Shown piece after piece: positions 1 through 35,124 of a DNA stretch of 35,196 bases. This stretch comes from a virus. Under the pieces are notes generated by a model that worked only from the letters and a program-made list of their open reading frames with translations, was not told where the DNA came from and searched no databases. The DNA lies in IMG/VR virus record IMGVR_UViG_3300027754_000250, positions 1 to 35,196 of that record; one strand, written 5' to 3'. Each line of letters begins with the position of its first letter. Positions within the stretch are counted from its first letter, which is position 1. Both the position numbers and the translations under genes were made by a program.

Positions 1-96
1 ACATGTCGGGATGCTGACATGTCGGGATGCTGACATGTCGGGATGCTGACATGTCGGGATGCTGACATGTCGGGATGCTGACATGTCGGGATGCTG
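1..96. repeat. Six perfect tandem copies of a 16-bp unit
   Basis: The unit ACATGTCGGGATGCTG occurs six times head to tail without a mismatch, and the first three bases of a seventh copy follow before the sequence diverges. Each unit contains the 8-bp palindrome GACATGTC across its junction. Because the array starts at base 1, its true length is unknown. It could be an iteron-like protein-binding array, part of a terminal repeat, or an assembly artefact at a contig edge. A 16-bp period is not a multiple of three, so a coding repeat is unlikely. Confidence 0.95.
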
Positions 97-119
97 ACAG
101 CATGGTCAGACCTCCAGAT

Positions 120-1190: not shown

Positions 1191-1386
1191 TGTGTCCGTT
1201 CTCCGTGTTTGGCGTCTGCGCGCCGTTTCGATACAAACCACTGTAATAGATTTTCGAGCATTAGCAAGCGGAAAATTGCAGGAAGGGCAAAAAAAGTTTT
1301 TGGGCTGATTTTTGGCGGCCTGTTAGGCTAGTGATTAGGCGCGCGCATTGCCTAGGATTGCGGGGCTTTTGGCTATTTAGGCTATT

Positions 1387-1416
1387 TTGATTATATGACT
1401 TAATGAACTTTATAAT
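1387..1416 (+). promoter_or_regulatory. Sigma70-like promoter candidate
   Basis: TTGATT (1387-1392) lies 18 bp upstream of a perfect TATAAT (1411-1416), in the AT-rich core of the non-coding region. A second TATAAT occurs at 1425-1430 without a good partner. It points rightward toward the terminase genes, about 420 bp upstream of the first start codon. AT-rich DNA generates such boxes by chance, so this is a reasonable candidate rather than an established promoter. Confidence 0.45.
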
Positions 1417-1489
1417 TATACATATATAATATGTAGTATAGAATTGTAGGCCGTGACTTGTGCGCGCGTGTGAGCGACTGAAATTGAAA

Positions 1490-1516
1490 TGACTATGTGA
1501 CTATTTGACTATTTGA
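1490..1516. repeat. 8-bp tandem repeat TGACTATK x3
   Basis: TGACTATG, TGACTATT and TGACTATT follow each other directly and end with a further TGA. The array lies between the AT-rich promoter candidate and the GCCTAA inverted repeats. It may be a small binding-site array or simple polymerase slippage. Confidence 0.8.
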
Positions 1517-1558
1517 GCCCCATCACGCCCGCGCACACCGGCGCATGGCATGGGCGCA

Positions 1559-1603
1559 TTAGGCGCATTAGGCTACTGCTCGCCCATAGCCTAAAACGCC
1601 TAA
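1559..1603. repeat. Inverted repeat made of doubled TTAGGC / GCCTAA motifs
   Basis: TTAGGCGCATTAGGC (1559-1573) and GCCTAAAACGCCTAA (1589-1603) are reverse complements at 13 of 15 positions, with a 15-base spacer. A third doubled copy, GCCTAAGACGCCTAA, lies at 1657-1671. Within each arm the hexamer recurs with a 9-bp period. The arrangement fits an operator or initiator site for a dimeric protein; a cruciform or RNA hairpin is also possible. Confidence 0.8.
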
Positions 1604-1835
1604 CACCATGCGAGCGCCAGGCGAGCGAAACGTGCTGACTGACTTGCTTGCTACTAGCCTAAGACGCCTAAGCCCCAGGCTCTATTGCCTAGCTTATGCT
1701 ACAGCTTGACCAGCACAATGGCTATTGCCTAGGTCATGTAGTAATTGCTAAGGTCAAGCAAAGCCCCCGGGCAGGGCCTTGCGCCGCCCGGTCACGGTCA
1801 CGGAGGGATTGCAAACAATTTTTTTTAAATATAAA

Positions 1836-2399
1836 ATGTCTTACATGACATGGCACACGCTCCCACACGACACGCGCAAGCTTCAGGCAACTGAGGCGCG
1901 GCTTGACGCAATCTATTGGGCGGCGCGTAATGGCCTGAAGGGCGACACGTTGGCGTTGGCTGCTGGGATGCGTCCATCTGAGTATCGGCAGCTCTGCGAG
2001 TTCGATCCGCTGACGGAAATGGCGGAACAGAAGGGACGCGCTGACGGCGAGATGGAGATCTCAGGTATACTGCATGACGCGGCGCGGGCGGGCGACGCCA
2101 AGGCGGCGTTGGAGATCTTGAAACACGCGCATGGTTGGACGGCCAAAACGGCGTTGGACATCAACATCGACCAGACCATCTCGGTCAAGCACGCCTTGGA
2201 AATGGCCCAGCAGCGGGTGCTGGAGGGGGCGTTTACTGTTGTGGAACAGCTAGAGGACACAGACCGTGCAAACACCAATCTATTCGGCTCAGGACGAGAT
2301 GGAGGTGATGGCGCGGTTGTGGACGCCCGCGCTGAAGAACGACCCGCTAAAGTTCGTACTGTACGCGTTCCCGTGGGGGCAGAAAGGGACGCCTCTTGA
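1836..2399 (+). CDS. terS: Terminase small subunit (probable)
   Basis: The gene lies immediately before and overlaps the terminase large subunit, the usual place of the DNA-recognition subunit that loads the genome onto the packaging motor. The product (187 aa from this ATG) has a helical N-terminal half with a helix-turn-helix-like stretch at about residues 33-52 (GDTLALAAGMRPSEYRQLCE), followed by a helical segment ending HAHGW. No close family match is recognised, so the call rests on position and fold. The start is uncertain: in-frame TTG codons at 1779 and 1809 lie near GGAGGG (1802-1807), while this ATG has no close ribosome site. The last 45 residues overlap the TerL gene and are Arg/Asp/Gly-rich. 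Confidence 0.7.
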   Translation: MSYMTWHTLPHDTRKLQATEARLDAIYWAARNGLKGDTLALAAGMRPSEYRQLCEFDPLTEMAEQKGRADGEMEISGILHDAARAGDAKAALEILKHAHGWTAKTALDINIDQTISVKHALEMAQQRVLEGAFTVVEQLEDTDRANTNLFGSGRDGGDGAVVDARAEERPAKVRTVRVPVGAERDAS

Positions 2400-3789
2400 G
2401 GATTTTGCTGGCCCGCGCAAATGGCAGCGCGAGGTGCTGCATGAGTTGGCGCAACATATAGAGCAGAACAACGGCAAGATTGACTTTGACACGCTGCGGA
2501 TGGCGACCAGCTCGGGGCGCGGCATCGGCAAGTCGGCGCTGGTGTCTTGGCTGGTGATCTGGATGCTATCGACACGCATTGGGTCCACCACCATTGTGTC
2601 GGCCAACTCGGAAGCGCAGCTCAGGTCGGTGACGTGGGCGGAGATAACCAAGTGGTTGTCCATGAGCTTGAACAGCCACTGGTTCGAGATCAGCGCCACC
2701 CGCGTGGCTCCGGCCAAGTGGCTGACGGAGATCGTGGAAAAGGACCTCAAGATGGGCACGCGCTACTGGGGCGCGGAGGGGCGGCTGTGGAGCGCGGAGA
2801 ATCCCGACGCCTACGCAGGGGTGCACAACTTCCAGGGTGTGATGCTGGTGTTCGACGAGGCCAGCGGCATCGAGGACAGCATCTGGTCGGTGGCGGCGGG
2901 GTTCTTTACTGAAAATACGCCCAACAGGTTCTGGATGGCGTTCAGCAACCCGCGCCGCAACAGCGGGTATTTTTACGAGTGCTTCAACGGCAAACGGGAC
3001 TTCTGGCGCAACAAGATCGTAGACGCCCGGTCGGTCGAGGGGACCGACAAGGCGGTGTACCAGCAGATCATTGACGAGTACGGGGCGGACAGCAACCAGG
3101 CCTACGTCGAGGTCTACGGGCAGTTTCCTAGTGCGTCAGACGACCAGTTCATTGGTAGCCACCTGGTTGACGAGGCGATGGACCGCGTCAAGTGGAAGGA
3201 TCAGTCGGCCCCCATCGTCATCGGCGTAGACCCGGCGCGGTTCGGGGCGGACTCAACGGTCATCGCCGTGCGGCAAGGCCGGGACATCATCGCTATTAAG
3301 AAGTACCGGGGCGACGACACCATGGAGGTAGTCGGGCGGGTGATCGAGGCCATCGAGGAGTACAAGCCCGCGCTGGTCGTGGTAGACGAGGGTGGGCTGG
3401 GGGCGGGCGTTGTGGACCGGCTCAAGGAGCAACGGTACAAGATCAGGGGCGTCAACTTTGGGTCCAAGAGCAAGAACCCGCTCATGTGGGGCAACAAGCG
3501 CGCGGAAATGTGGGGCGAGCTGCGGACGTGGCTCAAGACGGCCAGCCTGCCCAAGGACCGTTACCTCAAAAGCGACCTGATCGGCCCCATGATGAAGCCG
3601 GACAGCAAGGGTACCATCTTCTTGGAAAGCAAGAAGGACATGAAGGCGCGGGGGTTGGCGTCACCCGACGCGGCGGACGCCATCGCTGTCACGTTCGCGT
3701 TTCCGGTGGCGCACCGGGAGTACGTTGACCGTGGGCCTAGAAGAGGGTACTCTGCGGGCGGAATTACAACCTCATGGATGGGATCGTAA
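2266..3789 (+). CDS. terL: Terminase large subunit
   Basis: This is the ATP-driven packaging motor and headful nuclease; it docks on the portal and cuts concatemeric DNA. The 507-aa product has the expected ATPase domain with Walker A SSGRGIGKS at residues 82-90 and Walker B VMLVFDEAS at 192-200 (D197, E198). The C-terminal RNase H-like nuclease domain has acidic residues in VDPARFG (D322), VVVDEGG (D374) and SPDAADA (D468/D471). The length is normal for the family. The start used is GTG at 2266 with AGAGG upstream; ATG at 2299 is the alternative. It overlaps the small-subunit gene by 134 bases in another frame, which is longer than usual. The fold and motifs make the identity secure. Confidence 0.97.
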   Translation: MQTPIYSAQDEMEVMARLWTPALKNDPLKFVLYAFPWGQKGTPLEDFAGPRKWQREVLHELAQHIEQNNGKIDFDTLRMATSSGRGIGKSALVSWLVIWMLSTRIGSTTIVSANSEAQLRSVTWAEITKWLSMSLNSHWFEISATRVAPAKWLTEIVEKDLKMGTRYWGAEGRLWSAENPDAYAGVHNFQGVMLVFDEASGIEDSIWSVAAGFFTENTPNRFWMAFSNPRRNSGYFYECFNGKRDFWRNKIVDARSVEGTDKAVYQQIIDEYGADSNQAYVEVYGQFPSASDDQFIGSHLVDEAMDRVKWKDQSAPIVIGVDPARFGADSTVIAVRQGRDIIAIKKYRGDDTMEVVGRVIEAIEEYKPALVVVDEGGLGAGVVDRLKEQRYKIRGVNFGSKSKNPLMWGNKRAEMWGELRTWLKTASLPKDRYLKSDLIGPMMKPDSKGTIFLESKKDMKARGLASPDAADAIAVTFAFPVAHREYVDRGPRRGYSAGGITTSWMGS

Positions 3790-7631: not shown

Positions 7632-8909
7632 ATGGCCTTCATAACCGCAGATCGTGTCAAGGACACATCGACCACGACCGGCACCGGCAACATCACGGTG
7701 TCTGGATCTGCGCCATTTGGCTATCGGACATTCTCAACGGTTATGAGCGTTGCGGACACTTTCTATTACGCCATTCAAGGTCAATCGACTGCCGAATGGG
7801 AAATTGGCGTTGGCACCTATGCCAGTACCAACCAGTTTGCCCGCACGACCGTATTGGCGTCTTCCGCCAGCGGCAGCGCCGTGTCGTTCTCGTCTGGCAC
7901 CAAGAACGTGTTCATCACGTTGGCGGCTGCTAGAACGCTTCAGTTAAAATCTGGCGACACGCCTACGGCAGGGTCTATCCCTTATGGCGATGGCTCTACC
8001 CTTTCATACAGTTCTGTGGGTACGGCAGGGCAAGTGCTTGTATCCGGTGGTTCTGGTTCGCCTACATGGTCATCTGCTGGTACGGGCTCCGTCACTAGTG
8101 TTGCCGTCAGCGGCGGCACAACGGGCCTTACGACCAGTGGCGGACCTGTCACTACATCAGGCACCATAACCATTGCAGGTACGCTTGCTTATGGTAACGG
8201 AGGTACTGGCGGCACGGCTACGCCTACCGCAGGCACCATTCCCTACGGCACAGGCACCGCGCTTGCATATTCGGCTGCGGGCACATCGGGCCAGGTGCTT
8301 ACGTCTGGCGGCGCTGGAGCCCCTACTTGGACCACTGTGACCGGCACCGGCACCGTCACTAGCGTCAATGTTAGCGGCGGCACTACGGGCCTCACGTACA
8401 GCGGCGGGCCTATTACAGGGTCTGGCACCATTACAATGGCGGGCACGTTGGCTGTTGCTAACGGCGGCACAGGAATCACCAGTTTTGGAACCGGCGTTGC
8501 TACCGCGCTTGGGCAAAACGTATCGGGTTCAGGCAGCATTGTTCTTGGCACGTCGCCTACGGTCAACAACCCTACGGTCACCAACTACGTCGAGTCGGTG
8601 GTGGCTATTGGTACGGTAACAACGACCAATACCATCGCCCTGACCAACGGCACGGTTCAAACGGCAACCCTGACGGCTTCCACGGCTTGCACGTTTACAA
8701 TGCCTACGGCAACTGCGGGTAAATCTTTTGTACTGTTGTTGAAGCAGGCTGCAACCACCGGCAACGGCACGGCGACATTTACCAGCGTCAAATGGGGGAC
8801 TGCGGGCGCTCCGACGATCACCGCTACTGCGGGCAAAATGGACATCCTGACTTTTTTTGCTGACGGCACCAACTGGTACGGCAGCATAGCGCAGGGGTAC
8901 ACGCCGTAA
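7632..8909 (+). CDS. Tail fibre-like protein with internal repeats
   Basis: The product (425 aa) has three parts. Residues 1-105 form an N-terminal domain (MAFITADRVKDTSTTTGTGN onward) shared with the gene at 9754. Residues 112-193 and 198-281 are two tandem copies of a Gly/Thr/Ser repeat containing SGQVLTSGG, TVTSVxVSGGTTGL and GTLAxxNGGTG, typical of phage fibre shafts. The C-terminal 110 residues form a beta-rich tip with TATLTASTACTFTMPTA. It probably attaches to the virion by its N terminus and contacts the host surface. The start has only a weak ribosome site. The stop overlaps the next gene as TAATG. Receptor unknown. Confidence 0.8.
   Translation: MAFITADRVKDTSTTTGTGNITVSGSAPFGYRTFSTVMSVADTFYYAIQGQSTAEWEIGVGTYASTNQFARTTVLASSASGSAVSFSSGTKNVFITLAAARTLQLKSGDTPTAGSIPYGDGSTLSYSSVGTAGQVLVSGGSGSPTWSSAGTGSVTSVAVSGGTTGLTTSGGPVTTSGTITIAGTLAYGNGGTGGTATPTAGTIPYGTGTALAYSAAGTSGQVLTSGGAGAPTWTTVTGTGTVTSVNVSGGTTGLTYSGGPITGSGTITMAGTLAVANGGTGITSFGTGVATALGQNVSGSGSIVLGTSPTVNNPTVTNYVESVVAIGTVTTTNTIALTNGTVQTATLTASTACTFTMPTATAGKSFVLLLKQAATTGNGTATFTSVKWGTAGAPTITATAGKMDILTFFADGTNWYGSIAQGYTP
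7965..8474 (+). repeat. Two tandem ~250-bp coding repeats in fibre gene
   Basis: Bases 7965-8210 and 8223-8474 encode two copies of the same shaft module, about 82-84 residues each, recognisable at the DNA level through shared blocks such as AGCGGCGGCAC and CGGGCC. Such in-frame duplications can expand or contract by recombination and alter fibre length. Confidence 0.75.
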
Positions 8910-9754
8910 TGTTCGCCGCAAAAAACTTTTTTCTTGCTGGTGGATACGCAGGACCAACTGCCGTTGATTATCTTGTTGTAGCTGGTGGTGGCGGCGGCGG
9001 CGGGGCAAAATCAAGTGGCCCCGGTGATGGCGGCGGCGGCGGCGGCGCGGGCGGGTATTTAACCGCAACAGGTTATGCGGTAACGCCGGGGTCTTCAATT
9101 ACGATAACTGTTGGCGCTGGCGGCGCAGGCGGCACATCTAGTGCTACGCCAACTTCTGGAACTCAAGGCGGAAATTCGGTTTTTGGCAGCATAACTGCAA
9201 CAGGCGGCGGTTATGGAGGCGGAACATTTCCAACTTCGGCGGCGGGCGGTAATGGCGGTTCAGGTGGCGGCGGGTCGTATAATTTCGGTGGTTCCGGCAC
9301 ATCCGGCCAAGGAAATGATGGCGGTGGTGGCGCGCTTTACCCCGGCGGCGGCGGCGGTGGCGCGTCTTCAGTTGGTTTGTGGACATCTGGTTCTGTAACT
9401 GGCGGTAATGGCGGTAACGGAACGTCATCTTCTATTAGTGGGGCCTCTGTTAGTTACGCAGGCGGCGGCGGCGGCGGCGGCGGTACAACTGGCGGAAGTG
9501 CGTCTAGCGGCGGCGGCGCTGGCGGCGATTACGGGCTAAAAGGAAGTGACGGTACGGCTAACACTGGCGGCGGCGGCGGCGGCGCGGGAGTTAGGTATAC
9601 CTCTACCGCTCCTCAAGGTGGCGCAGGTATTGTAATTATTCGTTACCCCGACACTTATGCAAATGCTGCGTCCACAACTGGATCGCCTACGTTTACCAAC
9701 ACAGGCGGGTACAAAATTTACAAGTTTACCAGTAGTGGGAGCATCACCTTCTAA
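8909..9754 (+). CDS. Glycine-rich adhesin-like protein
   Basis: The product (281 aa) starts MFAAKNFFLAGGYAGPTAVD and is then dominated by glycine runs of up to seven residues with Ser, Thr and Ala, spaced by short strands such as SITITVGAGGAGG. It closes with GAGIVIIRYP and a Thr/Gly/Ser-rich end (GGYKIYKFTSSGSITF). This matches the glycine-rich domain often attached to phage fibres. Packed polyglycine helices form the receptor-binding tip of some T-even-like gp38 adhesins, so a receptor-binding role is an analogy, not demonstrated. The gene overlaps both neighbours (TAATG at its 5' end, its stop overlapping the next ATG), which implies co-translation of the three fibre genes. Confidence 0.75.
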   Translation: MFAAKNFFLAGGYAGPTAVDYLVVAGGGGGGGAKSSGPGDGGGGGGAGGYLTATGYAVTPGSSITITVGAGGAGGTSSATPTSGTQGGNSVFGSITATGGGYGGGTFPTSAAGGNGGSGGGGSYNFGGSGTSGQGNDGGGGALYPGGGGGGASSVGLWTSGSVTGGNGGNGTSSSISGASVSYAGGGGGGGGTTGGSASSGGGAGGDYGLKGSDGTANTGGGGGGAGVRYTSTAPQGGAGIVIIRYPDTYANAASTTGSPTFTNTGGYKIYKFTSSGSITF

Positions 9755-10728
9755 TGGCTTTCATCACCGCAGATCGTGTTCTTGATAGCTCCACGTCCAC
9801 TGGCACGGGAGCTTTTGTTGTGTCTGGTACGCCTGCGGCGGGCTACAGGACATTTTCGGCAGTCATGTCAGTTGGGGATACCTGCTATTATTCAATCCAA
9901 GGTCAAACCACTAGCGAATGGGAAGTGGGCCTAGGCACTTACTCATCAGCCAACACGCTAACCCGCACTACGGTTTACAGCTCATCCAATTCAGGATCTG
10001 CCGTTACGTTTTCGGCAGGCACTAAAAACGTATTCATCACAGTAGCGGCGTCGCGCGCGCCTCAACTAGATCCTTCTGGTAACGTGACGGCTCTCGGCAC
10101 CCCCACCTCGGTAAATCTGACCAACGCAACAAATTTGCCGTTGGCCTCCGGCGTCAGCGGTACTCTTCCGACCGCCAATGGCGGCACTGGTGGGAACATC
10201 TTGCCCACCACTGCTGGAAACGTGCTATTCACCACTGACGGGTCTGTGTGGTCATCGACACAGAAGATTGTGCAGTCAACGGCTGTCACGTTAACTACGC
10301 AAACTGCCGTAGATTTTACCAGCATTCCGTCTTGGGTGAAGCGCATCGTCGTAATGTTTGACGGGGCTAGTTTAAGCGGAACGTCAGATATTTTAGTTCG
10401 CTTGGGAACATCTGGTGGCATAGTATCAACTGGGTATGTTTCTGGTTGCACTGCAACCACCGGGACATCAGGCGCGACATCCACATCTACAACTGGTTTC
10501 GTTATACGACTGGTGGCGAACGCATCGGCCTGTTATGGAATAATGACAATTGCGTTAATAAGCACAAACAAATTTGTTTCCGCAATTTCTGGGCGGCAAG
10601 ACTCAACCGCCAACATGATGGGCGGTGGTTCCGTTGCTCTTGGTGGCACACTTGACCGAGTTCGCATCACCACCGTCAACGGAACTGACACTATGGACGC
10701 CGGTTCCGTCAACATCCTGTATGAATAG
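9754..10728 (+). CDS. Second tail fibre-like protein, shared N-terminal domain
   Basis: Residues 1-105 (MAFITADRVLDSSTSTGTGA onward) closely resemble the N terminus of the 7632-8909 product, including TFSxVMSV, YYxIQGQ, GTKNVFIT and matching spacing. After a short shaft with LPTANGGTGG the remaining ~170 residues differ: a beta-rich globular end with VVMFDGASLSGTSDILVRLG and GGSVALGGTLDRVRITT, resembling C-terminal modules of appendage proteins. The common N terminus is probably the virion-attachment domain. The 324-aa length is short for a fibre, so it may be a stubby spike-like appendage. The start overlaps the Gly-rich gene's stop. Confidence 0.78.
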   Translation: MAFITADRVLDSSTSTGTGAFVVSGTPAAGYRTFSAVMSVGDTCYYSIQGQTTSEWEVGLGTYSSANTLTRTTVYSSSNSGSAVTFSAGTKNVFITVAASRAPQLDPSGNVTALGTPTSVNLTNATNLPLASGVSGTLPTANGGTGGNILPTTAGNVLFTTDGSVWSSTQKIVQSTAVTLTTQTAVDFTSIPSWVKRIVVMFDGASLSGTSDILVRLGTSGGIVSTGYVSGCTATTGTSGATSTSTTGFVIRLVANASACYGIMTIALISTNKFVSAISGRQDSTANMMGGGSVALGGTLDRVRITTVNGTDTMDAGSVNILYE

Positions 10729-25470: not shown

Positions 25471-26199
25471 ATGCACATGAGCCAAGGCGGTCTTGACGCC
25501 CTTCTCAAGAAGTTCGAAGGCTGCAAGCTGAAGGCGTATCTCTGCCCCGCAGGCGTCTGCACCATCGGCTACGGCCACACGTCGGCTGCGGGCGCTCCTA
25601 TGGTCAACGACGGCATGACCATTACGCAGGCGCAGGCCGAAGACATCCTCAAGCGCGACATCGTCAAGTACGAGACCGCCGTGATGGATTTGGTTAAGGT
25701 CAAACTGACCCAGAACCAATTCGATGTTCTCGTGGACTTCGCCTACAATGCAGGCGTCGGAAACCTCAAATCTTCGACAATGCTGAAAAAGATAAACTCG
25801 GGCGATCTGGACGCAGTGCCTGCCGAGTTGATGAAATGGACCAAGGGCGGCGGCAAGGTGCTGCCAGGGCTGGTGCGCCGCCGCCAGGCGGCAGGCGCAT
25901 GGTGGACCGCACAGGATCAGGCGCATGATGAACAAGAGGACCGTGCAGAACCTGATGCTCCTCCGAAAAGAACTATGGCAGACAGCAAGCAAGGTAACGC
26001 GGCGCTACTCACGGCAGGGCTCGGAGGTCTGGGCGCAGCTAAGGAGATCGCTGCACAGGCGAAGGATGCGTCTGACGTGGCGGATCAGTTCATGGGCCTA
26101 CTCAGCAACACAAACTTCGTCATCATGGTGGCGATCATTGGCGCGGGCGCGGCCATCTGGTTCTGGCGCAAGAAGCACATGGATGAACACGGTGTTTAG
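25471..26199 (+). CDS. GH24 endolysin (lysozyme) with C-terminal membrane segment
   Basis: The 242-aa product contains a T4-type lysozyme domain at residues 6-150: catalytic E16 in KKFEGCKLKAY and the TIGYGHT motif (T31). At the position of the usual catalytic Asp (nine residues after Glu) there is C25 (AYLCPAG), a variant known in many phage lysozymes. It cleaves the glycan chain of peptidoglycan. Unlike simple GH24 enzymes it continues through a Pro/Glu-rich linker (about 150-168) to an Ala/Gly region and a single helix FVIMVAIIGAGAAIWFW at 216-232 with RKK after it. This may anchor the enzyme. An internal ATG at 25975 (M169) could make the tail as a separate membrane protein. Confidence 0.9.
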   Translation: MHMSQGGLDALLKKFEGCKLKAYLCPAGVCTIGYGHTSAAGAPMVNDGMTITQAQAEDILKRDIVKYETAVMDLVKVKLTQNQFDVLVDFAYNAGVGNLKSSTMLKKINSGDLDAVPAELMKWTKGGGKVLPGLVRRRQAAGAWWTAQDQAHDEQEDRAEPDAPPKRTMADSKQGNAALLTAGLGGLGAAKEIAAQAKDASDVADQFMGLLSNTNFVIMVAIIGAGAAIWFWRKKHMDEHGV

Positions 26200-26422
26200 T
26201 CTGCTGTTCACGCCGCTGGGGCGTTACGCCGTCATGGGCGTCATTATTGTAATGGCGCTGTCCGGCGTCTACTACAAGATCCGCAGAGACGCAGTGGCCG
26301 AGGTTGAGGCCGCTGCGACGGCAGACGTGCTACGGAGGACGGGCAATGCGATTCGTTTTGGCGATGCTGTTAACACTTCCCCTGACCGGGTGCGTGACCC
26401 TGACCAGCACCGTCGAGACTAA
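26183..26422 (+). CDS. Inner-membrane spanin (Rz-like), 79 aa
   Basis: The product starts MNTVFSLLFTPLGRYAVMGV and has one transmembrane helix (about 14-30) followed by a short, charged, helical periplasmic part. It overlaps the endolysin end by 17 bases and contains the start of the outer-membrane lipoprotein gene in another frame from 26346, the classical nested Rz/Rz1 design. The pair fuses inner and outer membranes after wall degradation. At 79 aa it is shorter than lambda Rz (153 aa). The identification rests on topology and arrangement rather than sequence similarity. Confidence 0.7.
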   Translation: MNTVFSLLFTPLGRYAVMGVIIVMALSGVYYKIRRDAVAEVEAAATADVLRRTGNAIRFGDAVNTSPDRVRDPDQHRRD

Positions 26423-26537
26423 CGGCGCGGTCTGCACGGTCTGGAAGGACGTGTCGTGGTCGTCCAAGGACACCACGGCGACCATCATCGAGGTCAAGCA
26501 GAACAACGCCCGCCGCGAGGGTTGGTGCGCTAAGTGA
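26346..26537 (+). CDS. Outer-membrane lipoprotein spanin (Rz1-like), 63 aa
   Basis: The product starts MRFVLAMLLTLPLTGCVTLT: a basic start, hydrophobic core and an LTGC lipobox with lipidated Cys at residue 16. The mature part is only 48 residues and has two further Cys. Signal peptidase II cleavage and outer-membrane anchoring would be expected. It begins inside the i-spanin gene in a different frame and ends 115 bases beyond it. Rz1 of lambda is Pro-rich; this one is not, so other phage lipoproteins of the lysis region are alternatives. The stop overlaps the end of the opposing leftward gene by eight bases. Confidence 0.75.
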   Translation: MRFVLAMLLTLPLTGCVTLTSTVETNGAVCTVWKDVSWSSKDTTATIIEVKQNNARREGWCAK

Positions 26538-26733
26538 GCGCCATCACACGCGGGAACTCGGCATCGCCAAGGATCTCCATGCGCTCCCGCGCCGCCCGTA
26601 ACATCGTGTAGCGTTGGTGCAGGCGGATCAGCACCGACTGCCGCTGCTCGCCCACGCGCTCCTCGTCCAGCATCTTCTTGATGGTGTCCTCGTCCAGATC
26701 GGGCAACACCTTGTTGATCTCGCGCCAGTTCAT
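26530..26733 (-). CDS. Small helical protein downstream of helicase, 67 aa
   Basis: The product begins MNWREINKVLPDLDEDTIKK and is highly charged and helical, including MLDEERVGEQRQSVLIRLHQ. Its look suggests a small DNA- or protein-binding factor, but no family is recognised. The ATG overlaps the helicase stop (ATGA) and AGGAA precedes it, so it should be translated with the helicase. It may be an accessory subunit or a separate early protein. It runs into the opposing lysis operon with its stop inside the spanin gene's last codons. Confidence 0.65.
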   Translation of the reverse strand: MNWREINKVLPDLDEDTIKKMLDEERVGEQRQSVLIRLHQRYTMLRAARERMEILGDAEFPRVMALT

Positions 26734-28070
26734 GTCTTCAATTCCTCAAGTGCTATGTCTGAGATCGCCCGCTTGTCCTGAAGCGCGCCCCAGATCCGTT
26801 CGTCTATAGTTTTATTACAGATCAGCAGATAACACCAGACATCCCGCGTCTGGCCGCCCCGGTGGATGCGCCCCACCGTCTGTTCGAACAGTTCCAGCGA
26901 CCACGGCAGCGACAGGAAGATCATGTTGCAGCCGCCAAACTGTAGGTTCAGGCCGTGCCCGGCGGACTTGGGATGGATCAGCAGCATCTCGATCTCGCCC
27001 GCGTTCCATCGTTTGATGGCGTTGAAATCGTCAATCGTCCGCGCCAGCGGATACCGGCGCAGCAACTCGGCAAGTTCTTCTTTGTAATTGTAGACGATGA
27101 TCGTGTTGGCGTGTTGGTTCTCGTTCAGGATCTCGTCCAGCAGATCGAACTTGTGCGTTGAAAACCAGATGGCCTTTTGTCTCTGGAGAAATTTGCCGGG
27201 CTCCGGCAGCGCCTCCGTCTTGGTGTCGTAGACGAACCCAGACGCCATCTGCTGGAGCTTGTTCGTCACGGCGGCGGCGTTCGCCGCGATGACCCGATCT
27301 TCGCCATACTCCAGCACGAATTCGCGCTTCATCTTTTCGTAGGGCTTGCGGTCGGCCATGTCGCAACGCATTTCCACAACATTTAACTGCGGCAGTTTGT
27401 CGCTGTACTCGCCGGGCTCCAGCACGAAGGTTGCCGGACGGATGGCGTCCATGACTTGCTCCAGCGCGCCTTTGCGCGGTTGCCAGTCGCCGAAGTCGCG
27501 GTTGACGCATACAAAGTACTTCTGGAGGAACGCGCCCTTGGCCCGGCCCAGCAGCGTCTGGTCGATCACCTTGCATTGGCCGAACACGTCTTCAAGCCCG
27601 TTGGACGTAAATGAGCCGGTCAGACCCCACCGGAACGGGATCTTGTCGAGGTGCGCCAGCAGCGCCTTGAAGCGTTTGCCGCTGGGGTTCTTGAGCCGCG
27701 TCAGCTCGTCAAAAACGATGCCGTCGAAGCCCGACAGATCCGGTAGCGATTGAATGTTGTCGTAGTTGGTCACCACGATAGGCGCGGCGCTGTCAAATGC
27801 CACTTGACGCTGCGCTGGCGTCCCGATGGCGACGGCGATCTCAAAGTCTGGAGCCCACTTGGGTTGCTCGACCGGCCACACGTCCGTGCAGACGCGCTTG
27901 GGGGCCAGCACCAGCCAACGCTTGACGTGCCCCTCCGCGATCAGCTCGGTCATGGCCGTCAGCGTGATGGCCGTCTTGCCTGCGCCCACGGGCGCAAGGA
28001 TCATTGCGCGGTCTCGTTCGAACAGGAAATCGGCGGCTTGTTCTTGGTAAGGTCGTAACGTGAGGCCCAT
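26730..28070 (-). CDS. SNF2-like DEAD-box superfamily 2 helicase
   Basis: The 446-aa product shows superfamily 2 motifs in order: Q-like region LRPYQEQAADF (5-15), Walker A APVGAGKT (26-33), motif II FDEL (120-123, with DELT instead of DEAH), motif III LTGS (150-153), motif V SAGHGLNLQ (369-377) and motif VI EQTVGRIHRGGQ (396-407). This arrangement matches phage SNF2-type helicases, which remodel or unwind DNA using ATP. The protein is small with no extra domains. It overlaps the VRR-NUC gene by 70 bases, and the two probably work together, for example in recombination, repair or host DNA processing. The specific role is not established. Confidence 0.92.
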   Translation of the reverse strand: MGLTLRPYQEQAADFLFERDRAMILAPVGAGKTAITLTAMTELIAEGHVKRWLVLAPKRVCTDVWPVEQPKWAPDFEIAVAIGTPAQRQVAFDSAAPIVVTNYDNIQSLPDLSGFDGIVFDELTRLKNPSGKRFKALLAHLDKIPFRWGLTGSFTSNGLEDVFGQCKVIDQTLLGRAKGAFLQKYFVCVNRDFGDWQPRKGALEQVMDAIRPATFVLEPGEYSDKLPQLNVVEMRCDMADRKPYEKMKREFVLEYGEDRVIAANAAAVTNKLQQMASGFVYDTKTEALPEPGKFLQRQKAIWFSTHKFDLLDEILNENQHANTIIVYNYKEELAELLRRYPLARTIDDFNAIKRWNAGEIEMLLIHPKSAGHGLNLQFGGCNMIFLSLPWSLELFEQTVGRIHRGGQTRDVWCYLLICNKTIDERIWGALQDKRAISDIALEELKT

Positions 28071-28324
28071 TCATCCACCCCTTCTTTGGACCAAAGGCAG
28101 GCGTATCGCTGCTCCAGCCGTCGCATGTCCAGTGCAAACAACTCTTGAAGTGGCGACAGACGCCCACCTTTTGTCTTGAGTTCTACAAACCACGTCTCGC
28201 CGTTCGGCATCCACGCGATCCGATCCGCCACCCCAGCTTGGTTTGGCGATTTGAACTTGTAGGTAAGCCCCTGCCGTAGCATGACCGCCCACACGAAATA
28301 TCGTTCGATCTCGCTTTCTTTCAT
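28001..28324 (-). CDS. VRR-NUC domain nuclease, 107 aa
   Basis: The product contains the VRR-NUC core: GVADRI at residues 31-36 (D34), then FVELKTKGGRLSPLQ at 46-60 (E48, K50, Q60), the PD-(D/E)xK catalytic pattern. VRR-NUC phage proteins are stand-alone structure-selective nucleases that resolve branched DNA such as Holliday junctions. The start ATG at 28324 has no good ribosome site and lies close to the divergent promoter region. The C terminus overlaps the helicase gene by 70 bases, which suggests tight coupling. Length is normal for phage versions. Confidence 0.92.
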   Translation of the reverse strand: MKESEIERYFVWAVMLRQGLTYKFKSPNQAGVADRIAWMPNGETWFVELKTKGGRLSPLQELFALDMRRLEQRYACLWSKEGVDEWASRYDLTKNKPPISCSNETAQ

Positions 28325-28395
28325 AAAAAAATCTATTGCATGTTCGTAAAAGAAAGTCTAGTGTCCGTCAGTCAACAATCCACTGAGGTAATCTA
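28325..28395. promoter_or_regulatory. Divergent promoter region
   Basis: This 71-bp gap separates the leftward VRR-NUC operon from the rightward replication operon. It holds TTGACT on the minus strand (28375-28370) and TTGCAT on the plus strand (28336-28341) with weak downstream -10 boxes. It is the only place where promoters for both operons can sit. A GAGG site precedes the plus ATG. The exact boxes are not certain. Confidence 0.55.
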
Positions 28396-29526
28396 ATGGC
28401 TCAACACTCCAACATTGTCGGCGGGTCCACCGCCAAGCGCGTCATCAACTGCCCTGGCTCCGTGGCGCTCGTCGCCCAGATGCCGCCCAAGCCCTCCAGC
28501 GTTTACGCCGACACCGGCACATTGCTCCACAACGTCATCGCCGACGTGCTGGACGGCAAGGCCACCGCGCAAGATTTCCTTGGCGCTGTCCATGCGGACG
28601 TGACGCTCGATCAGGATCTGATCGACAACAAGTTGCTGCCCGCGCTGGCGGCGCTGAACGAGATCGACCCTGACAGGCAGATGGAGTTTGAGACCGAGGT
28701 GGTCGTCGGGTTCGGCGATCTGCTGCCCGACGTGTTCGGGTCCGCCGACATCGTCGGTCGTATCGGCGACACGGCGTACATCGTGGACTGGAAGTTCGGC
28801 GATGGCGTGGCCGTCGATGTTGAAGAGAATCCCCAGCTTATGTTCTACGCTGCTGCGGCCATGCGGACCCCTGCAGCCCAGTGGGCGTTCGAAGGTGCGA
28901 CCAAAGTCGAGCTGGTCATCGTGCAGCCGCCCTACGTCAAGCGTTGGGAGACGACCCCGCGCCGCATCCAACTGTTTGAGAAGGAGTTGATGCAAGCCGT
29001 CAAGGTTGCCCAGCGTCCTGACGCGCCGCTGGCGCAAGGCGAGTGGTGCCGCTGGTGCGCCGCCAAGGCCGTGTGCCCCATCATGACCGGCGCTGCTGAC
29101 CGGGCGCTGGTCTCCGCGCTGAAGAACGTCGATGTCGCCAGCATGTCGGACCATCTCAAGATGGCGGACCAGTTGGAAGGCTGGATCAAGGAGGTGCGGG
29201 CGCTGGCGATGCAGACGTTGGAGGCTGGCCTGCCGGTGCCCGGCTACAAACTTGTTCCCAAGCGCGCGCTGCGCCAGTGGGTGAATGAAGGAAAGGCTCT
29301 TGACGCCATGTGCGATCTGGGGCTCGATGTAAAGGAATTGACAGAGACGAAGTTGCTGAGTCCTGCACAAGCCGAGAAGGTGTTGAAGAAGCACAAGCTC
29401 GCGCTGCCTGCGGATCACGTCGTCGCTGTTTCATCGGGTAACACGCTGGCGTCAGAGGATGATCCTCGCCCGGCGGTGTTGCAGATCGGCGCACAGTTGT
29501 CCGCCGCTCTTGGTAAACTCGTCTAA
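28396..29526 (+). CDS. DUF2800 / Cas4-like PD-(D/E)xK nuclease
   Basis: The 376-aa product has the RecB-like nuclease core: H45 (DTGTLLHNVIADV), D118 (FGSADIVG), D131-x-K133 (YIVDWKFGDG) and a Gln/Tyr motif near 147-151 (QLMFY). One N-terminal Cys (C19 in INCPGS) and a C-terminal trio C218-x2-C221-x5-C227 (EWCRWCAAKAVCP) fit the four-Cys iron-sulphur cluster of Cas4/AddB nucleases. The family is DUF2800, often beside phage replication genes. It is likely a DNA exonuclease in recombination or replication. It is first in the rightward replication operon. Confidence 0.9.
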   Translation: MAQHSNIVGGSTAKRVINCPGSVALVAQMPPKPSSVYADTGTLLHNVIADVLDGKATAQDFLGAVHADVTLDQDLIDNKLLPALAALNEIDPDRQMEFETEVVVGFGDLLPDVFGSADIVGRIGDTAYIVDWKFGDGVAVDVEENPQLMFYAAAAMRTPAAQWAFEGATKVELVIVQPPYVKRWETTPRRIQLFEKELMQAVKVAQRPDAPLAQGEWCRWCAAKAVCPIMTGAADRALVSALKNVDVASMSDHLKMADQLEGWIKEVRALAMQTLEAGLPVPGYKLVPKRALRQWVNEGKALDAMCDLGLDVKELTETKLLSPAQAEKVLKKHKLALPADHVVAVSSGNTLASEDDPRPAVLQIGAQLSAALGKLV

Positions 29527-29537
29527 GGAGAATGGTA

Positions 29538-30191
29538 ATGTCAAATCTTACAGTATTCGGTGGCGCTAACCTTCCTTCCGTTTCGTCTCTTGCCTCTAGC
29601 TTGCGCTCGATCAGCGCAGGCGTTCCTGACGGCGCGGGTTCTGTCATCATCAAGATGGACAAGACCGGCCATTGGGTGTTCGGCGCAGAGCAGACCGAGA
29701 TCGAAGACGACGCTACATGGGCGATCAATCCTTTCAGTTTTGTCCACGGCTTTATTGCTTGGGGCGAAGGTGAGGTTCTTGGCGAGAAGATGGTGCCGGT
29801 GTCGCAGCCGCTGCCTGAACTCGACGTTGCGCCGCCTGCCGCCAAGCGCGGCTGGGAGGTGCAGGTTGGTCTGTCCCTGAAGTGCATGTCCGGCGAGGAC
29901 AAGGATCTGGAAGGCCGTTACACGGTTACGTCCGTGGGCGGCAAGAAAGCGGTGCAGCAGCTTGCGCTTGCCATTGCCGCTCAGGTCGATAAGGACCAGA
30001 CCAAGCCGGTACCCGTGGTGCGCCTGAAAAAGGAACACTACGTCCACAAGTCCTACGGTCGCATCTATACCCCCGTCTTCGAAGTTATTGAGTGGGTCGG
30101 GATGGACGGTGCGCCTGCGGAAACCGAGGCGGCGGAAGCTGTCACGGACGACACCCCTTCTGAGTCGCGTCGCCGTCGTCGCAGCGCGTAA
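29538..30191 (+). CDS. Possible single-stranded DNA-binding/replication accessory protein
   Basis: The 217-aa product starts MSNLTVFGGANLPSVSSLAS and has a beta-rich core (ASxxRSISAG, SVIIKMDKTGHWVFGAEQTE, WAINPFSFVHGFIAWGEGEV) followed by an acidic C-terminal tail (AETEAAEAVTDDTPSESR) and a short basic end. An acidic C terminus and a place between the DUF2800 and polymerase genes fit a phage ssDNA-binding protein, analogous to DUF2815 elsewhere, but no SSB motif is certain. AAGGAG at 29525-29530 selects the ATG at 29538 over 29532. It could also be another replication accessory factor. Confidence 0.6.
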   Translation: MSNLTVFGGANLPSVSSLASSLRSISAGVPDGAGSVIIKMDKTGHWVFGAEQTEIEDDATWAINPFSFVHGFIAWGEGEVLGEKMVPVSQPLPELDVAPPAAKRGWEVQVGLSLKCMSGEDKDLEGRYTVTSVGGKKAVQQLALAIAAQVDKDQTKPVPVVRLKKEHYVHKSYGRIYTPVFEVIEWVGMDGAPAETEAAEAVTDDTPSESRRRRRSA

Positions 30192-30204
30192 GGAGGAGTG
30201 AAAG

Positions 30205-30238
30205 CGGGCGCCAGTGGTCCTCCCCCCGCTGGCGCCCG
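30205..30238 (+). other. Strong RNA hairpin ahead of DNA polymerase gene
   Basis: CGGGCGCCAG (30205-30214) pairs perfectly with CTGGCGCCCG (30229-30238); three more pairs including a G-T can extend the stem inward to a pyrimidine-rich loop. A strong ribosome site (AAGGAGGA, 30190-30197) lies just upstream and the likely polymerase ATG is 17 bases downstream. No T-run follows, so it is not a typical terminator. It probably modulates polymerase translation or transcription past the upstream gene. Confidence 0.75.
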
Positions 30239-30254
30239 TGAGTATCTACAGCCC

Positions 30255-32225
30255 ATGAAAACTCTCTGGCTTGATTTCGAGACGCGGAGCAAGTGCGACT
30301 TGCCTTCGCGGGGCGTGTACAACTACGCCCAAGACATCAGCACTGAGGTGCTGTGCATGTCCTACGCCTTCGATGACGACGAGGTGGTGACCTGGTTGCC
30401 CGGTCAACCATTCCCCGCCGCTGTCGCAGACCATACCGGCCAGATCCGCGCGCACAACGCTGCGTTCGAGCGCCTGATTTTCTGGTTCGTGCTGTGCCCC
30501 GATCACAAGATCCCTGAGCCCAAGCTGGCGCAGTTCTACTGCACGGCGGCGCAGGCGCGCGCCAACTGCGCGCCCGGCTCGCTGGAAGATGTGGGGCGCT
30601 TTGCTGGCGCATCCATGAAGAAGGACCACCGGGGCTCGCAACTGATTCGGCTGCTGTCCGTGCCACAGGCTGACGGGTTCTTCCGGCAAGACCAAACGCT
30701 GATGGCCGAGATGGTGGCTTATTGCGAACAAGATGTCCGCGCCATGCGTGCGATCAGCGAAGGTATGCGTGACCTGTCCGCTGACGAGCTGGTTGATTAC
30801 CACGTCAACGAGCGCGTCAACGATCGGGGCGTCCGTGTCGATGTCGAGCTATGCAACGCTGCCGTGCGTTACGCCACCGTCGAGCTGGACGAGATTCAGC
30901 AGATCGTGCGCGAGGTGACGGACGGCGCGATCACCAGCGTCCGCAGTCCCAAGATGCGCCAGTGGGTGCTGGACCGTGTCGGGCCGCAGGCGCTGGAGTT
31001 GATGACGGTCTTCAAAGACGGCGAGGCCAAGTATTCTATCGACAAGTCCGTGCGTGGCAACCTTTTAATTCTCGCTGGAGAAAATCCTGATGAAGTGCCG
31101 CCCGATGTCGCTGAGGTCATACAATGTGCGGACGACCTATGGGCTTCGTCGGTCGCGAAGTTCCAACGCGCCGCTAATCTCGCTGATCGAGATGATGGAC
31201 GAGTGCGTGGGGCGTTTGTCTTTTCTGGGGGTTCAGCAACGGGCCGTGCTTCGAGCTTTGGACTGCAAGTCCACAACTTCCCCCGCAAGTGCGCGAAAGA
31301 ACCTGAACTAGTTCGCGCTGCGATGGTGCAGGGCGGCGAGATTGTCCCCCAGTACGGCAAGCGCGTCACTGACGTGCTGAAGCAGATGCTGCGCCCGGCG
31401 CTGCTGGCCGAGCCCGGCAATGCCTTAGTGGTGGCCGACTGGTCGTCCATCGAAGCGCGCGTCAATCCGTGGCTGTCTGGCCGGGGCGACGATAAACTGG
31501 ACATCTTCCGAAATGGCGGCGACGTTTACAAGGTGAACGCATCGGCAACATTCCGTGTGCCTGTCGCCGAGGTGACGGGCGACCAGCGCCAGGTCGGCAA
31601 GGTGCAGGAACTGGCCTGCGGCTTCGCCGGTGGCGTGGGCGCGTTCGCTGCGATGGGCCGGATCTACGGCTTGTTGCTGCCTGAGCCTGAGGCCCGGCGC
31701 ATGGTGGACGGGTGGCGCAGGGCAAACCCGTGGGCCATGCCGTTCTGGGACAGTTTGGAGCGGTGCTACACCGCCGCCATGCGTCACAAGGGCAAGGAGT
31801 TTACCGCCGGGCGCATTACTTACTTGTTCGACGGCGTTCACCTCTGGTACGCTCTGCCGTCTGGGCGCATTCTCTGCTACCCATACGCCAAGCTGGAGGA
31901 AGACGGCGTCACCTACGCCAAGGCGGCATGGAAGCCCGCCGCAGACGCCAAGGAGTGGCCCCGCGCCCGCCTGTGGCGTGGTCTGGCTTGCGAAAACGTT
32001 ACGCAAGCGACGGCCAACGACATCTTGCGCTACGCTCTTCGTTCGCTCGATGCAGAGGGGTTCGAACCCGTCCTGCACGTCCACGACGAGATCGTGCTGG
32101 AGACCGCAGATCCTGTAGCAGCCGAAGAGGCCATGCAGCGCGCGATGTGTACGCCGCCCGCATGGGCCGTAGGTCTGCCGCTGGGGATCGAGACGACGAC
32201 GATGACACGCTATGGGAAGGGGTAG
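30255..32225 (+). CDS. Family A DNA polymerase with 3'-5' exonuclease
   Basis: The 656-aa product begins with the exonuclease domain: Exo I LDFET (D7, E9), Exo II-like AHNAAFE (N68), and Exo III YCEQD (Y156, D160). The polymerase domain follows with the TGR-S motif (about 329-333), motif A VADWSSIEAR (D395), motif B RQVGKVQELACGF (K449) and motif C HVHDEIV (D611). It is a typical phage replicative PolA lacking a 5'-3' nuclease domain. An upstream in-frame GTG at 30198 sits only one base from GGAGG, so the ATG is preferred. The product works with the primase-helicase encoded three bases downstream. Confidence 0.95.
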   Translation: MKTLWLDFETRSKCDLPSRGVYNYAQDISTEVLCMSYAFDDDEVVTWLPGQPFPAAVADHTGQIRAHNAAFERLIFWFVLCPDHKIPEPKLAQFYCTAAQARANCAPGSLEDVGRFAGASMKKDHRGSQLIRLLSVPQADGFFRQDQTLMAEMVAYCEQDVRAMRAISEGMRDLSADELVDYHVNERVNDRGVRVDVELCNAAVRYATVELDEIQQIVREVTDGAITSVRSPKMRQWVLDRVGPQALELMTVFKDGEAKYSIDKSVRGNLLILAGENPDEVPPDVAEVIQCADDLWASSVAKFQRAANLADRDDGRVRGAFVFSGGSATGRASSFGLQVHNFPRKCAKEPELVRAAMVQGGEIVPQYGKRVTDVLKQMLRPALLAEPGNALVVADWSSIEARVNPWLSGRGDDKLDIFRNGGDVYKVNASATFRVPVAEVTGDQRQVGKVQELACGFAGGVGAFAAMGRIYGLLLPEPEARRMVDGWRRANPWAMPFWDSLERCYTAAMRHKGKEFTAGRITYLFDGVHLWYALPSGRILCYPYAKLEEDGVTYAKAAWKPAADAKEWPRARLWRGLACENVTQATANDILRYALRSLDAEGFEPVLHVHDEIVLETADPVAAEEAMQRAMCTPPAWAVGLPLGIETTTMTRYGKG

Positions 32226-32228
32226 GAC

Positions 32229-34571
32229 ATGCTGCAAGAACAACAATTCTACGACTACATCACGGGGCTCGCCCCAGCCGGCGAGACGGCGCTGCTGGTG
32301 CGCCAGAAGCCCGTCATGCGCGACGGTGAGCAGCAGACGTTTCTCGACGGTTCGCTGAAGTACACTTGGCCCGCGTACATGCCCACCAAGCCGCGCAAGG
32401 AAGGCGAGGCATGGTATCTTAACACCGGCTCGTTCATGGCGTCACGGTTCCTTGACGGCAAGCCCAGCGCCAGCGCCGCCAATTGCGACTACGTCCTGTG
32501 CATGATGCTGGACGACATTGGCACCAAGTCCAAAGTGCCGCCGCTGGCTCCGACATGGATCATGGAGACCAGCGAGGGGTCATTCCAGTGGGGCTACGGC
32601 TTCACTGATCAACCATCCAAGGGCGAGTTCAGCGCGGCCATCACCGCCATCGCGGAGGCAGGCTACACAGACCCCGGCGCGACCAACCCTGTACGTAATT
32701 TCCGCGTTCCCGGTTCTGTCAATCTAAAGCCCGGTCGCGATCTCTTCCGTTCACGTTTGGTTGAATTCCACCCTGACCGTGAGTACACGCTGCCGCAGAT
32801 CTGCGAGGCGCTGGGCGTCACGCCAGCGGAGGCCGACACCGCGCGCGTCCTGTCGTTCAAGCTGCGCGACACCGGCAAGGATACTGTGCTGGAATGGCTG
32901 AACGATAAGGGTCTGGTGCTGTCGCACGTTAACCCTGAGGGCTGGATGGGCATCGTGTGCCCCAACAACGTCGAGCACACGGACGGCCAGATCGGAGCCC
33001 GCTACAAGCCTCTGGACCGCTCGTTCTGTTGCTACCACGGTCACTGCGAGGGCTTCAACACGCAGGCGTTTCTGGCGTGGGTCCACGACAACGGTGGCCC
33101 GCGCGTCTCGCCCGGCCTGCGCGACGAGTTGCTGGCGGCGCACATGCAGTCCACTCTGTCCAAGCTGTCGCCCACCGCCGCCTTCCCTGACGAGGCGGCG
33201 CGTGTCATCGCCGAGGTGGAGCGCAAAGAAGTTGGACGCGTTGACAAGGCGAGTTGGTACGAACGGTTTGCTTACGTCATCGAAGACGACGCATACTTTG
33301 ACATGGACGCCCGCACCGAGTTGAGCCGTCACAGCTTCAACGCCATCTTTCGCCATGTGTTCTGCAAATCCATTCACGTCACCGGCAAAACCGCGCGGCG
33401 CATCGAGGCCAGCGTCTGCTACGACGAGAACCGCAGCGCCGCTAACGCGCGCCTGCTGCGCGGGATCACCTACGCTGCGGGTGACGGCGTCCTCGTCTCG
33501 CGTGACGGCGACGTGTACGGCAACCGCTGGCGCGACGCGCGCCCTGACTTGACCGGCGTGGCCGCTGGCGACGTGTCTCGATGGCTGAATCATTGCCGGG
33601 TGCTGGTGCCCGAGGAGGCCGAGTTGAACCATTGCCTCGACGTGATGGCGTTCAAGCTCCAGAACCCCCGCGTCAAGATCAACCACGCCATTTTGCACGG
33701 CGGCGACGAGGGCTCCGGCAAAGATACGATGTGGGCTCCGTTCATCTGGAGCGTCTGCGGCCCAGGTCTCAAGAACAGGGGGCTGGTGGACAACGATGGA
33801 CTCAACTCCCAATGGGGTTACGCGCTGGAGTCGGAGATTTTGATCCTGAACGAACTGAAGGAGCCGGAGGCGTCGCAGCGCCGCGCGCTTGCCAATAAGA
33901 TGAAGCCGATCATCGCCGCCCCGCCGGAGACGCTGCCGATCAACCGCAAGGGGCTGCATCCCTATGATATGGTCAACAGGATGATGGTGCTGGCGTTTAC
34001 GAACGATCCGGTCCCGATCTCGATTTCGTCCGGCGATCGTCGCTGGTTCTGTATCTGGTCCGCTGCGGGCCGTATGGACGCCAGCGCCGCGCGGAGCCTG
34101 TGGACTTGGTACAAGCATGGCGGGTTCGAGACCATCGCCCGGTGGCTGGCTGACCGCGACGTGAGCGCCTTCAATCCGTCTGCGCCGCCCATTTGGACCG
34201 AGTTTAAGGAAAACCTTATTGAGTCAGGCATGAGCATCGCAGAATCGTTTATCTTGGATCAAATCCGCGCCAAGGTCGGCGAGTTTTCGAAGGGCGTTGT
34301 TTCTACGCCGTTCTTCAAGCTGTGCCAGTTCTTAACGGTCAACGCGCCTGGCGGCGTCAAGATTCCGCAGGCAGCGTTGCTGCACGCCCTCAAGGAGGCC
34401 GGATGGGTGGATATGGGGCGCATTGGATCGTTCGAGCATTCCAGCAAGCGCCACATCTACGCCGCGCCTGATCTAGCGCGGACGCAGACCAAAAGCTATC
34501 TGCGAAACTTGCTAGAGCCTGTCGCCAGCGCGGAGAGTAACGTGCGCGATTTCCCCGGCAAGAAGCCCTGA
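32229..34571 (+). CDS. Primase-helicase: RepB-like primase plus DUF5906-type SF3 ATPase
   Basis: The 780-aa product combines modules. Residues about 80-185 resemble an archaeo-eukaryotic-type primase of the RepB_primase family (MMLDDIGTK with D95/D96; APTWIMETSEGSFQ; VRNFRVPGSVN). A zinc-binding segment follows (C244, H250, CCYHGHC at 267-273). The C-terminal part (about 460-640) is a superfamily 3-like helicase of the DUF5906 type: Walker A GGDEGSGKD (491-499), Walker B-like EILILNEL (535-542) and R604/R605 as arginine-finger candidates. It primes and unwinds DNA at the fork. It follows PolA closely in one operon. The fork-loading site is not identified. Confidence 0.9.
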   Translation: MLQEQQFYDYITGLAPAGETALLVRQKPVMRDGEQQTFLDGSLKYTWPAYMPTKPRKEGEAWYLNTGSFMASRFLDGKPSASAANCDYVLCMMLDDIGTKSKVPPLAPTWIMETSEGSFQWGYGFTDQPSKGEFSAAITAIAEAGYTDPGATNPVRNFRVPGSVNLKPGRDLFRSRLVEFHPDREYTLPQICEALGVTPAEADTARVLSFKLRDTGKDTVLEWLNDKGLVLSHVNPEGWMGIVCPNNVEHTDGQIGARYKPLDRSFCCYHGHCEGFNTQAFLAWVHDNGGPRVSPGLRDELLAAHMQSTLSKLSPTAAFPDEAARVIAEVERKEVGRVDKASWYERFAYVIEDDAYFDMDARTELSRHSFNAIFRHVFCKSIHVTGKTARRIEASVCYDENRSAANARLLRGITYAAGDGVLVSRDGDVYGNRWRDARPDLTGVAAGDVSRWLNHCRVLVPEEAELNHCLDVMAFKLQNPRVKINHAILHGGDEGSGKDTMWAPFIWSVCGPGLKNRGLVDNDGLNSQWGYALESEILILNELKEPEASQRRALANKMKPIIAAPPETLPINRKGLHPYDMVNRMMVLAFTNDPVPISISSGDRRWFCIWSAAGRMDASAARSLWTWYKHGGFETIARWLADRDVSAFNPSAPPIWTEFKENLIESGMSIAESFILDQIRAKVGEFSKGVVSTPFFKLCQFLTVNAPGGVKIPQAALLHALKEAGWVDMGRIGSFEHSSKRHIYAAPDLARTQTKSYLRNLLEPVASAESNVRDFPGKKP

Positions 34572-34579
34572 ACGAAAGA

Positions 34580-34605
34580 CCCCCGGTTGCGTGGGCGACC
34601 GGGGG
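34580..34605 (+). terminator. Hairpin terminator candidate after replication operon
   Basis: CCCCCGGT (34580-34587) pairs with ACCGGGGG (34598-34605), with a further T-G, G-C and C-G extending to a GTGG loop. It starts eight bases after the primase-helicase stop. A T-tract is missing, so it would be an imperfect intrinsic or Rho-assisted terminator, separating this operon from the opposing leftward gene. Confidence 0.65.
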
Positions 34606-34660
34606 CAAGTTGCGTTTCGAACAAACACTAGGACTAGGCTACTAGACACCTCACAATCTA

Positions 34661-34700
34661 CGCCGGGGCGAATGCTCCGGCGATCCGGCTCTCACCGGAT
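34661..34700. repeat. Two short inverted repeats between converging genes
   Basis: CGCCGG (34661-34666) pairs with CCGGCG (34677-34682), and ATCCGG (34683-34688) pairs with CCGGAT (34695-34700); the second overlaps the stop of the leftward 34692 gene. The rest of the 34572-34691 gap shows nothing coding. They may be leftward or bidirectional transcription ends; neither has a T-run. Confidence 0.5.
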
Positions 34701-35066: not shown

Positions 35067-35124
35067 TGTAGTCTCCCCTTGGTTGACGGTAAACCATCGC
35101 ACGTCAGCGCGATGGCGTAAAGGA

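Follow-up and report, generated by a model that had tools for sequence, protein, structure and literature searches.

A lineage-specific array of 9-bp repeats upstream of terS, changing in step with a primase-helicase residue, is the most likely replication origin of a P22-like freshwater phage

Results

Organization of the region upstream of terS

The window (the whole 35,196-bp stretch of DNA analysed here) is a contig of an uncultured P22-like podovirus, a freshwater bacteriophage whose large terminase subunit (TerL) is 81% identical to that of MW202483 and 69% identical to that of DSL-LC05. As to the host, TerL relatives were found only in metagenome bins (Rhodoferax, Burkholderiales, Methylococcaceae and an actinobacterium), which are too weak a basis for assignment. 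Contig L152 comes from the metagenome that also gave L004. It matches window positions 25816–35196 at 100% identity, continues about 1.7–1.8 kb beyond them and carries at its end the same 16-bp repeat that begins the window, thereby closing the circle and filling the gap between the contig ends. This tandem repeat, ACATGTCGGGATGCTG, is present in six copies (window 1–99 and L152:11108–11218), and the assembly broke there.

A non-coding block (1242–1778) lies between a leftward gene (885–1241) and the rightward terS (Table 1). A sequence-only reading of this DNA had described the block as a cluster of TTAGGC/GCCTAA hexamers separating two divergent transcription units, and both parts of the description were borne out. 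TTAGGC starts at 1323, 1335 and 1377 and, as a pair with a 9-bp period, at 1559/1568; GCCTAA forms two further such pairs, at 1589/1598 and 1657/1666. Against these nine hexamers, 5000 dinucleotide-preserving shuffles of the block yielded 0.83 on average and never more than 6. Only six occur in the other 34.6 kb, so that the hexamer is not equally frequent elsewhere; the count for the whole window is ordinary (15 vs 12.5 expected), and the enrichment is local. The inverted repeat reported at 1559–1603 was likewise present, with arms (1559–1575 and 1587–1603) that are 88% complementary, and is accounted for by the minus-strand and plus-strand pairs being divergent boxes. An RNA element was considered and rejected, since the window contains no Rfam family or tRNA and the inverted repeat is explained in this way.

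Table 1. Features of the repeat block, its neighbouring genes and the proposed reader (window coordinates unless a contig is named).
Feature	Position	Strand	Basis or remark
Left boxes TTAGGC	1323–1328 and 1335–1340	-	Exact hexamers; same place and strand in L005, L006, L007
Box variant ATTGCCTAG	1347–1355	+	Exact sequence
Box TTAGGC adjoining AT core	1377–1382	-	In phase with relatives' box pair left of core
AT-rich core, candidate unwinding element	1386–1445		AT-richest 60 bp of contig
TGACTAT, three copies 8 bp apart (starts 1490, 1498, 1506)	1490–1516	+	Exact sequence
Tandem TTAGGC boxes, 9 bp apart	1559–1573	-	Exact hexamers
Tandem GCCTAA boxes, 9 bp apart, divergent from 1559–1573 pair	1589–1603	+	Exact hexamers
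Tandem GCCTAA boxes, 9 bp apart	1657–1671	+	Exact hexamers; five copies in L005
Box variants ATTGCCTAG	1684–1692 and 1724–1732	+	Exact sequence
Small terminase subunit gene terS, right-hand neighbour	1836–2399	+	Upstream of terL; homology to DSL-LC05-type terS
Large terminase subunit gene terL	2266–3789	+	
Family-A DNA polymerase	30198–32225		Other side of block on circular map
Primase-helicase, proposed origin reader and initiator	32229–34571	+	DUF5906, phrog and PDB matches; co-variation; also other side of block on circular map
Predicted C-terminal winged-helix domain, residues 659–762	34203–34514	+	AlphaFold2, pLDDT mostly 69–90 from residue 671
Wing loop; Gly733 (34425–34427) tracks box, then 735, 738	34425–34448	+	Co-variation and AlphaFold2
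DnaA-domain-IV-like protein of the window virus, about 129 aa	L152:9869–10255	-	In gap between window ends; carries GRDHTT

The three copies of ATTGCCTAG, the TGACTAT triplet and the TTGATT-18-TATAAT match (1387–1416) that had been listed as adjoining the hexamers were all located in the block. Because ATTGCCTAG contains GCCTAG, it belongs to the same box family and adds three GCCTAG to the nine hexamers. The TTGATT-18-TATAAT match falls inside the AT-rich core, which has 85% A+T and boxes on both sides; four promoter-like matches occur in 1200–1900 vs 1.1 expected, and as evidence of a promoter the match is weak. Directly 5′ of terS, at 1763–1835, a G-rich stretch plus GCAAACAATTTTTTTT is better conserved than the boxes in the alignment of relatives and is possibly a terS promoter or a packaging signal. 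Microsatellite-like runs (CCCCCTG, CCGGC, CCCTG) are located between the candidate origin and terS in two close relatives (L005:5030–5140 and L007:5400–5475) and are absent from the window. Elsewhere in the window, the genes starting at 7632–7927 and 9754–10049 have related beginnings, each matching both close-relative copies at ~66% DNA identity, which is likely to reflect a duplication in the tail region.

Conservation of the array in related phages

In three TerL relatives at 98–99% identity, the box is the same and surrounds a conserved AT core; two of the three have 9-bp arrays that are longer, reaching 17 hexamers. More distant relatives have other boxes (CCTA, CCCAA, CCGAA, TGACYCACA, TTGTCCACA, GT[AT]TACA and others) at the same place upstream of terS. 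Conservation of the region, which the sequence-only reading had suggested as a check, was thus found for the architecture (spacing, place and AT core), but not for the box sequence, which is lineage-specific and turns over between lineages. Among 43 loci, same-strand boxes are spaced by 9 bp in 107 cases, followed by 10 bp in 24, and the layout (- -) core (+ +)(- -)(+ +)(+ +) recurs with different boxes. Direct alignment places the boxes in phase, as in ATAGCCTAA, ATGACCCAA and ATTGTCCAC, and 46 of 59 loci have their AT-richest 60-mer at the array position. L001, L041 and L039 have palindromic boxes, with GTTTACA or GTATACA in facing copies, in place of the 9-bp tandem ones, indicating that the array type itself has changed.

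A conserved layout, a regular spacing and an AT-richest segment are features of a replication origin, and, judged from these sequence comparisons, the block is most likely the replication origin of the phage. Cumulative GC skew, for which a minimum at the block had been predicted, gave no consistent minimum there, a result that is either negative or uninformative. The sequence-only reading had left the choice between an origin and a master operator, to which a protein repressing or activating the two divergent transcription units would bind. The origin, unlike the operator, gained support, from the layout around the AT-richest segment, the position and the co-variation with the primase described below. 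An operator would suit a block that separates divergent genes and has promoter-like matches, and HTH proteins are encoded nearby in some relatives; however, an operator would not normally have 10–20 boxes around the AT-richest segment, L013 and L015 encode a nearby HTH protein that is 99% identical between them despite boxes that differ at positions 2–3, and the boxes co-vary with the primase. We therefore regard the operator as very improbable. The location of the block directly upstream of terS also brings to mind a packaging (pac) site read by the small terminase subunit. Yet TerS proteins that are 94–100% identical accompany different boxes, and TerS proteins that are only 55–60% identical accompany the same box; since TerS does not track the box, a TerS-read pac site can be given hardly any weight.

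Box sequence co-varies with a wing residue of the primase-helicase

Of the proteins compared as candidate readers, the primase-helicase is the one that follows the box. It matches DUF5906 (PF19263) at residues 489–605 (E 1.4e-9), which identifies an SF3/D5-type helicase domain, and it matches phrog DNA primase families and PDB entries 6k9c/6k9e (titled Primase; E 7e-4). AlphaFold2 predicted a winged helix at the C-terminus, the helicase part of the model being of low confidence. In a second structural comparison the hits were generic winged helices, among them DNA-bound ArgR and FadR, at Z up to 5.8; this speaks for the fold and for nothing beyond it. A Foldseek search with the model of the whole primase C-terminus found nothing below E 0.001.

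In a discovery scan of 36 loci, 628 variable columns (301 from the primase C-terminus, 241 from TerL and 86 from TerS) were scored by the mutual information (MI) between column and box class, the training box classes being partly set by hand. The top column was primase residue 730 (L066 ORF numbering; Gly733 in the window), with a normalised MI of 0.68, followed by 732 (L066 numbering) with 0.52. The pairings were Lys-CAC, Ala-CCCAA, Gly-CCTA and Asp-CCGAA; Lys was present at all 13 loci with CAC boxes and at none of the 23 others.

The pairing was then applied to held-out loci, which were fetched by primase queries and from which contigs already used were then removed. Boxes were called by a fixed rule within 1 kb upstream of terS, blind to the residue and first checked on the training loci; the caller was ambiguous on L007 and disagreed with the assigned class on L042 and L047. 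Two earlier callers had been dropped, the first because it was drawn to AT-rich words and the second, based on word counts, because it missed some classes. The prediction was correct at 88 of 90 callable loci (Lys-CAC 38/38, Ala-CCCAA 41/43, Gly-CCTA 9/9), with seven more unclear. As many of these loci are near relatives, independent pairs were counted. On the TerS tree of 124 loci, all 9 supported pairs agreed for Lys-CAC (p 0.004); for Ala-CCCAA about 9 of 11 did so, and no pair was opposed. On this tree the residue requires 33 changes and the box 32. On the TerL tree all five independent pairs agreed (p 0.06, the limit for five pairs), as did all three supported pairs on a tree built from the helicase part. 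The residue rule is broken by L005 and L006, which have Ala with GCCTAA, and by L061 and L082, which have His and Tyr.

With 126 loci, the top primase columns were 730, 732 and 735 (L066 numbering), and all three of these residues sit in the wing loop of the AlphaFold2 model. That the box changes in step with one residue of the primase-helicase across more than 100 related phages suggests that the enzyme locates its origin through the sequence of the repeats. Alternatively, the primase 3′ end and the origin could simply recombine together, with the primase making no contact with the box. The two are within a few kb of each other on the circular map, and further primase sites also group by box: in four closely related phages this grouping is favoured by 35 primase sites, which lie mostly in the C-terminal third, and the two other possible groupings by 5 and 3. 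Such linkage may contribute to the co-variation. As its explanation we consider linkage unlikely, because residue 730 stands well above the other primase columns (normalised MI of 0.78 vs 0.57 and 0.41 with the 126 loci), residue and box are matched in the same way against different sequence backgrounds, and TerS, on the other side of the origin, has no such link.

A DnaA-domain-IV-like protein

The window virus also encodes a DnaA-domain-IV-like protein, the gene for which is shared with the close relatives L005, L006 and L007. PF08299 matches the L005 and L006 copies slightly below the curated cut-off (E 2e-6 and 4e-6) and other relatives above it; the fold matches 3pvp and 1j1v, and the RDHT signature is invariant among nine of these proteins. 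By these sequence and fold matches, the protein is assigned as a real DnaA-domain-IV homologue. The L005 protein has a weak match to phrog_27829 (E 0.002). A second copy is located elsewhere in the genomes of L061 and L082, and two changes on the TerL tree suffice to explain where the gene is present. In L013 (1871–2167) and L022 (1842–2147), the place of the gene is taken, on the minus strand, by a different protein, which is HTH-like and has a zinc-binding C-terminus. This protein was rejected as a reader in the L013/L022 group, since L013 and L015 carry nearly the same version of it (99% identity) alongside boxes that are not the same at positions 2–3.

The DnaA-domain-IV protein might itself read the boxes as DnaA-box-like sites, or host DnaA might do so where the boxes are TTATCCACA or TTGTCCACA; the block would still be an origin. 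Within 1.56 kb, L064/L066 have two TTATCCACA and twelve TTGTCCACA, with none elsewhere in the locus, the boxes align in phase from TTGTCCACA through to the window box, and the gene, with a matching fold, is present in the window virus (on L152) and in relatives. The window box TAGCCTAAA, however, does not fit the DnaA consensus TTWTNCACA, to which only relatives such as L064/L066 come close, and retains only 4 of 9 DnaA-box positions. The DnaA-domain-IV protein was demoted as the reader because its gene is absent from 12 of 22 array-bearing genomes that cover primase to TerL, because L041 and L047 have a common HTH region in this protein but different boxes, and because the primase wing tracks the box better. 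We thus think it improbable that DnaA or its phage homologue is the reader; where the boxes of some relatives look like DnaA boxes, this may be coincidental or may point to a part played by DnaA.

Discussion

Taken with the conserved layout and the predicted fold, the co-variation makes it probable that the block is an origin bound by the phage's own P4-alpha/D5-type primase-helicase through its C-terminal winged helix. In the mechanism that we infer, an AT-rich segment where the duplex unwinds would be bordered on both sides by 9-bp boxes that share the core GCCTA[AG] and are arranged as tandem and divergent pairs. The primase-helicase would bind the boxes through the winged helix, the wing reading the variable middle of the box; the SF3-type helicase ring would open the AT-rich core, and the primase part would then start DNA synthesis. 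More tentatively, a nearly one-residue wing code (Lys-CAC, Ala-CCCAA, Gly-CCTA, Asp-CCGAA) might set origin recognition. The residue and the whole array of 10–20 boxes would then have switched together repeatedly, so that near-identical phages would no longer recognise each other's origins. Such a replicon-identity system, perhaps driven by competition in co-infected cells, is a possibility that we would not yet call probable.

In bacterial oriC, clustered 9-mer DnaA boxes adjoin an AT-rich unwinding element. The array resembles oriC in having clustered 9-mer boxes beside an AT-rich segment, with DnaA-box-like boxes in L064/L066, but GCCTAA of the window differs widely from a DnaA box, and a primase-helicase appears to be the reader. 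The alpha protein of phage P4 is described as an SF3-type primase-helicase that acts in origin opening and priming (Ziegelin et al. 1993, cited in PMC8628076 and PMC9611036). Compared by that description, both systems have a phage SF3-type primase-helicase as the recogniser, here a proposed one, of a repeat-containing origin, and the window system has the P4-alpha-type features of an SF3/D5-type primase-helicase and of repeated short sites with an AT-rich segment. Unlike P4, the window phage has 9-bp tandem arrays that flank an AT core upstream of terS, and its lineage-specific boxes follow a wing residue. The window system may be viewed as a P4-type origin/initiator pair with a candidate wing-residue recognition code.

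The primase-polymerase-helicase of phage NrS-1 and poxvirus D5 are described as DUF5906 proteins with a common domain layout (PMC9611036), and the window protein is like them in matching DUF5906 and PDB 6k9c/6k9e; we found no origin co-variation described for NrS-1 or D5 in the part of that literature covered. DnaA-like replication initiators are described in phages such as podophage Pony (PMC3853050). The window virus similarly encodes a DnaA-domain-IV-like protein, but one consisting of domain IV only, plus an N-terminal HYKxVRARL segment and a linker. A search of the open-access literature by titles and abstracts, with incomplete coverage, returned no description of the system. The finding also raises the question of what role the extra DnaA-domain-IV protein has.

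For a large group of uncultured freshwater phages, the results offer a simple rule by which origins can be located and put forward a candidate initiator. Joint change of origins and their readers has usually been inferred from a few model systems. Here, more than 100 related phages show many switches in which an entire origin array and one predicted contact residue change together, so that the evolution of origin specificity becomes directly testable by one-amino-acid, one-box swaps.
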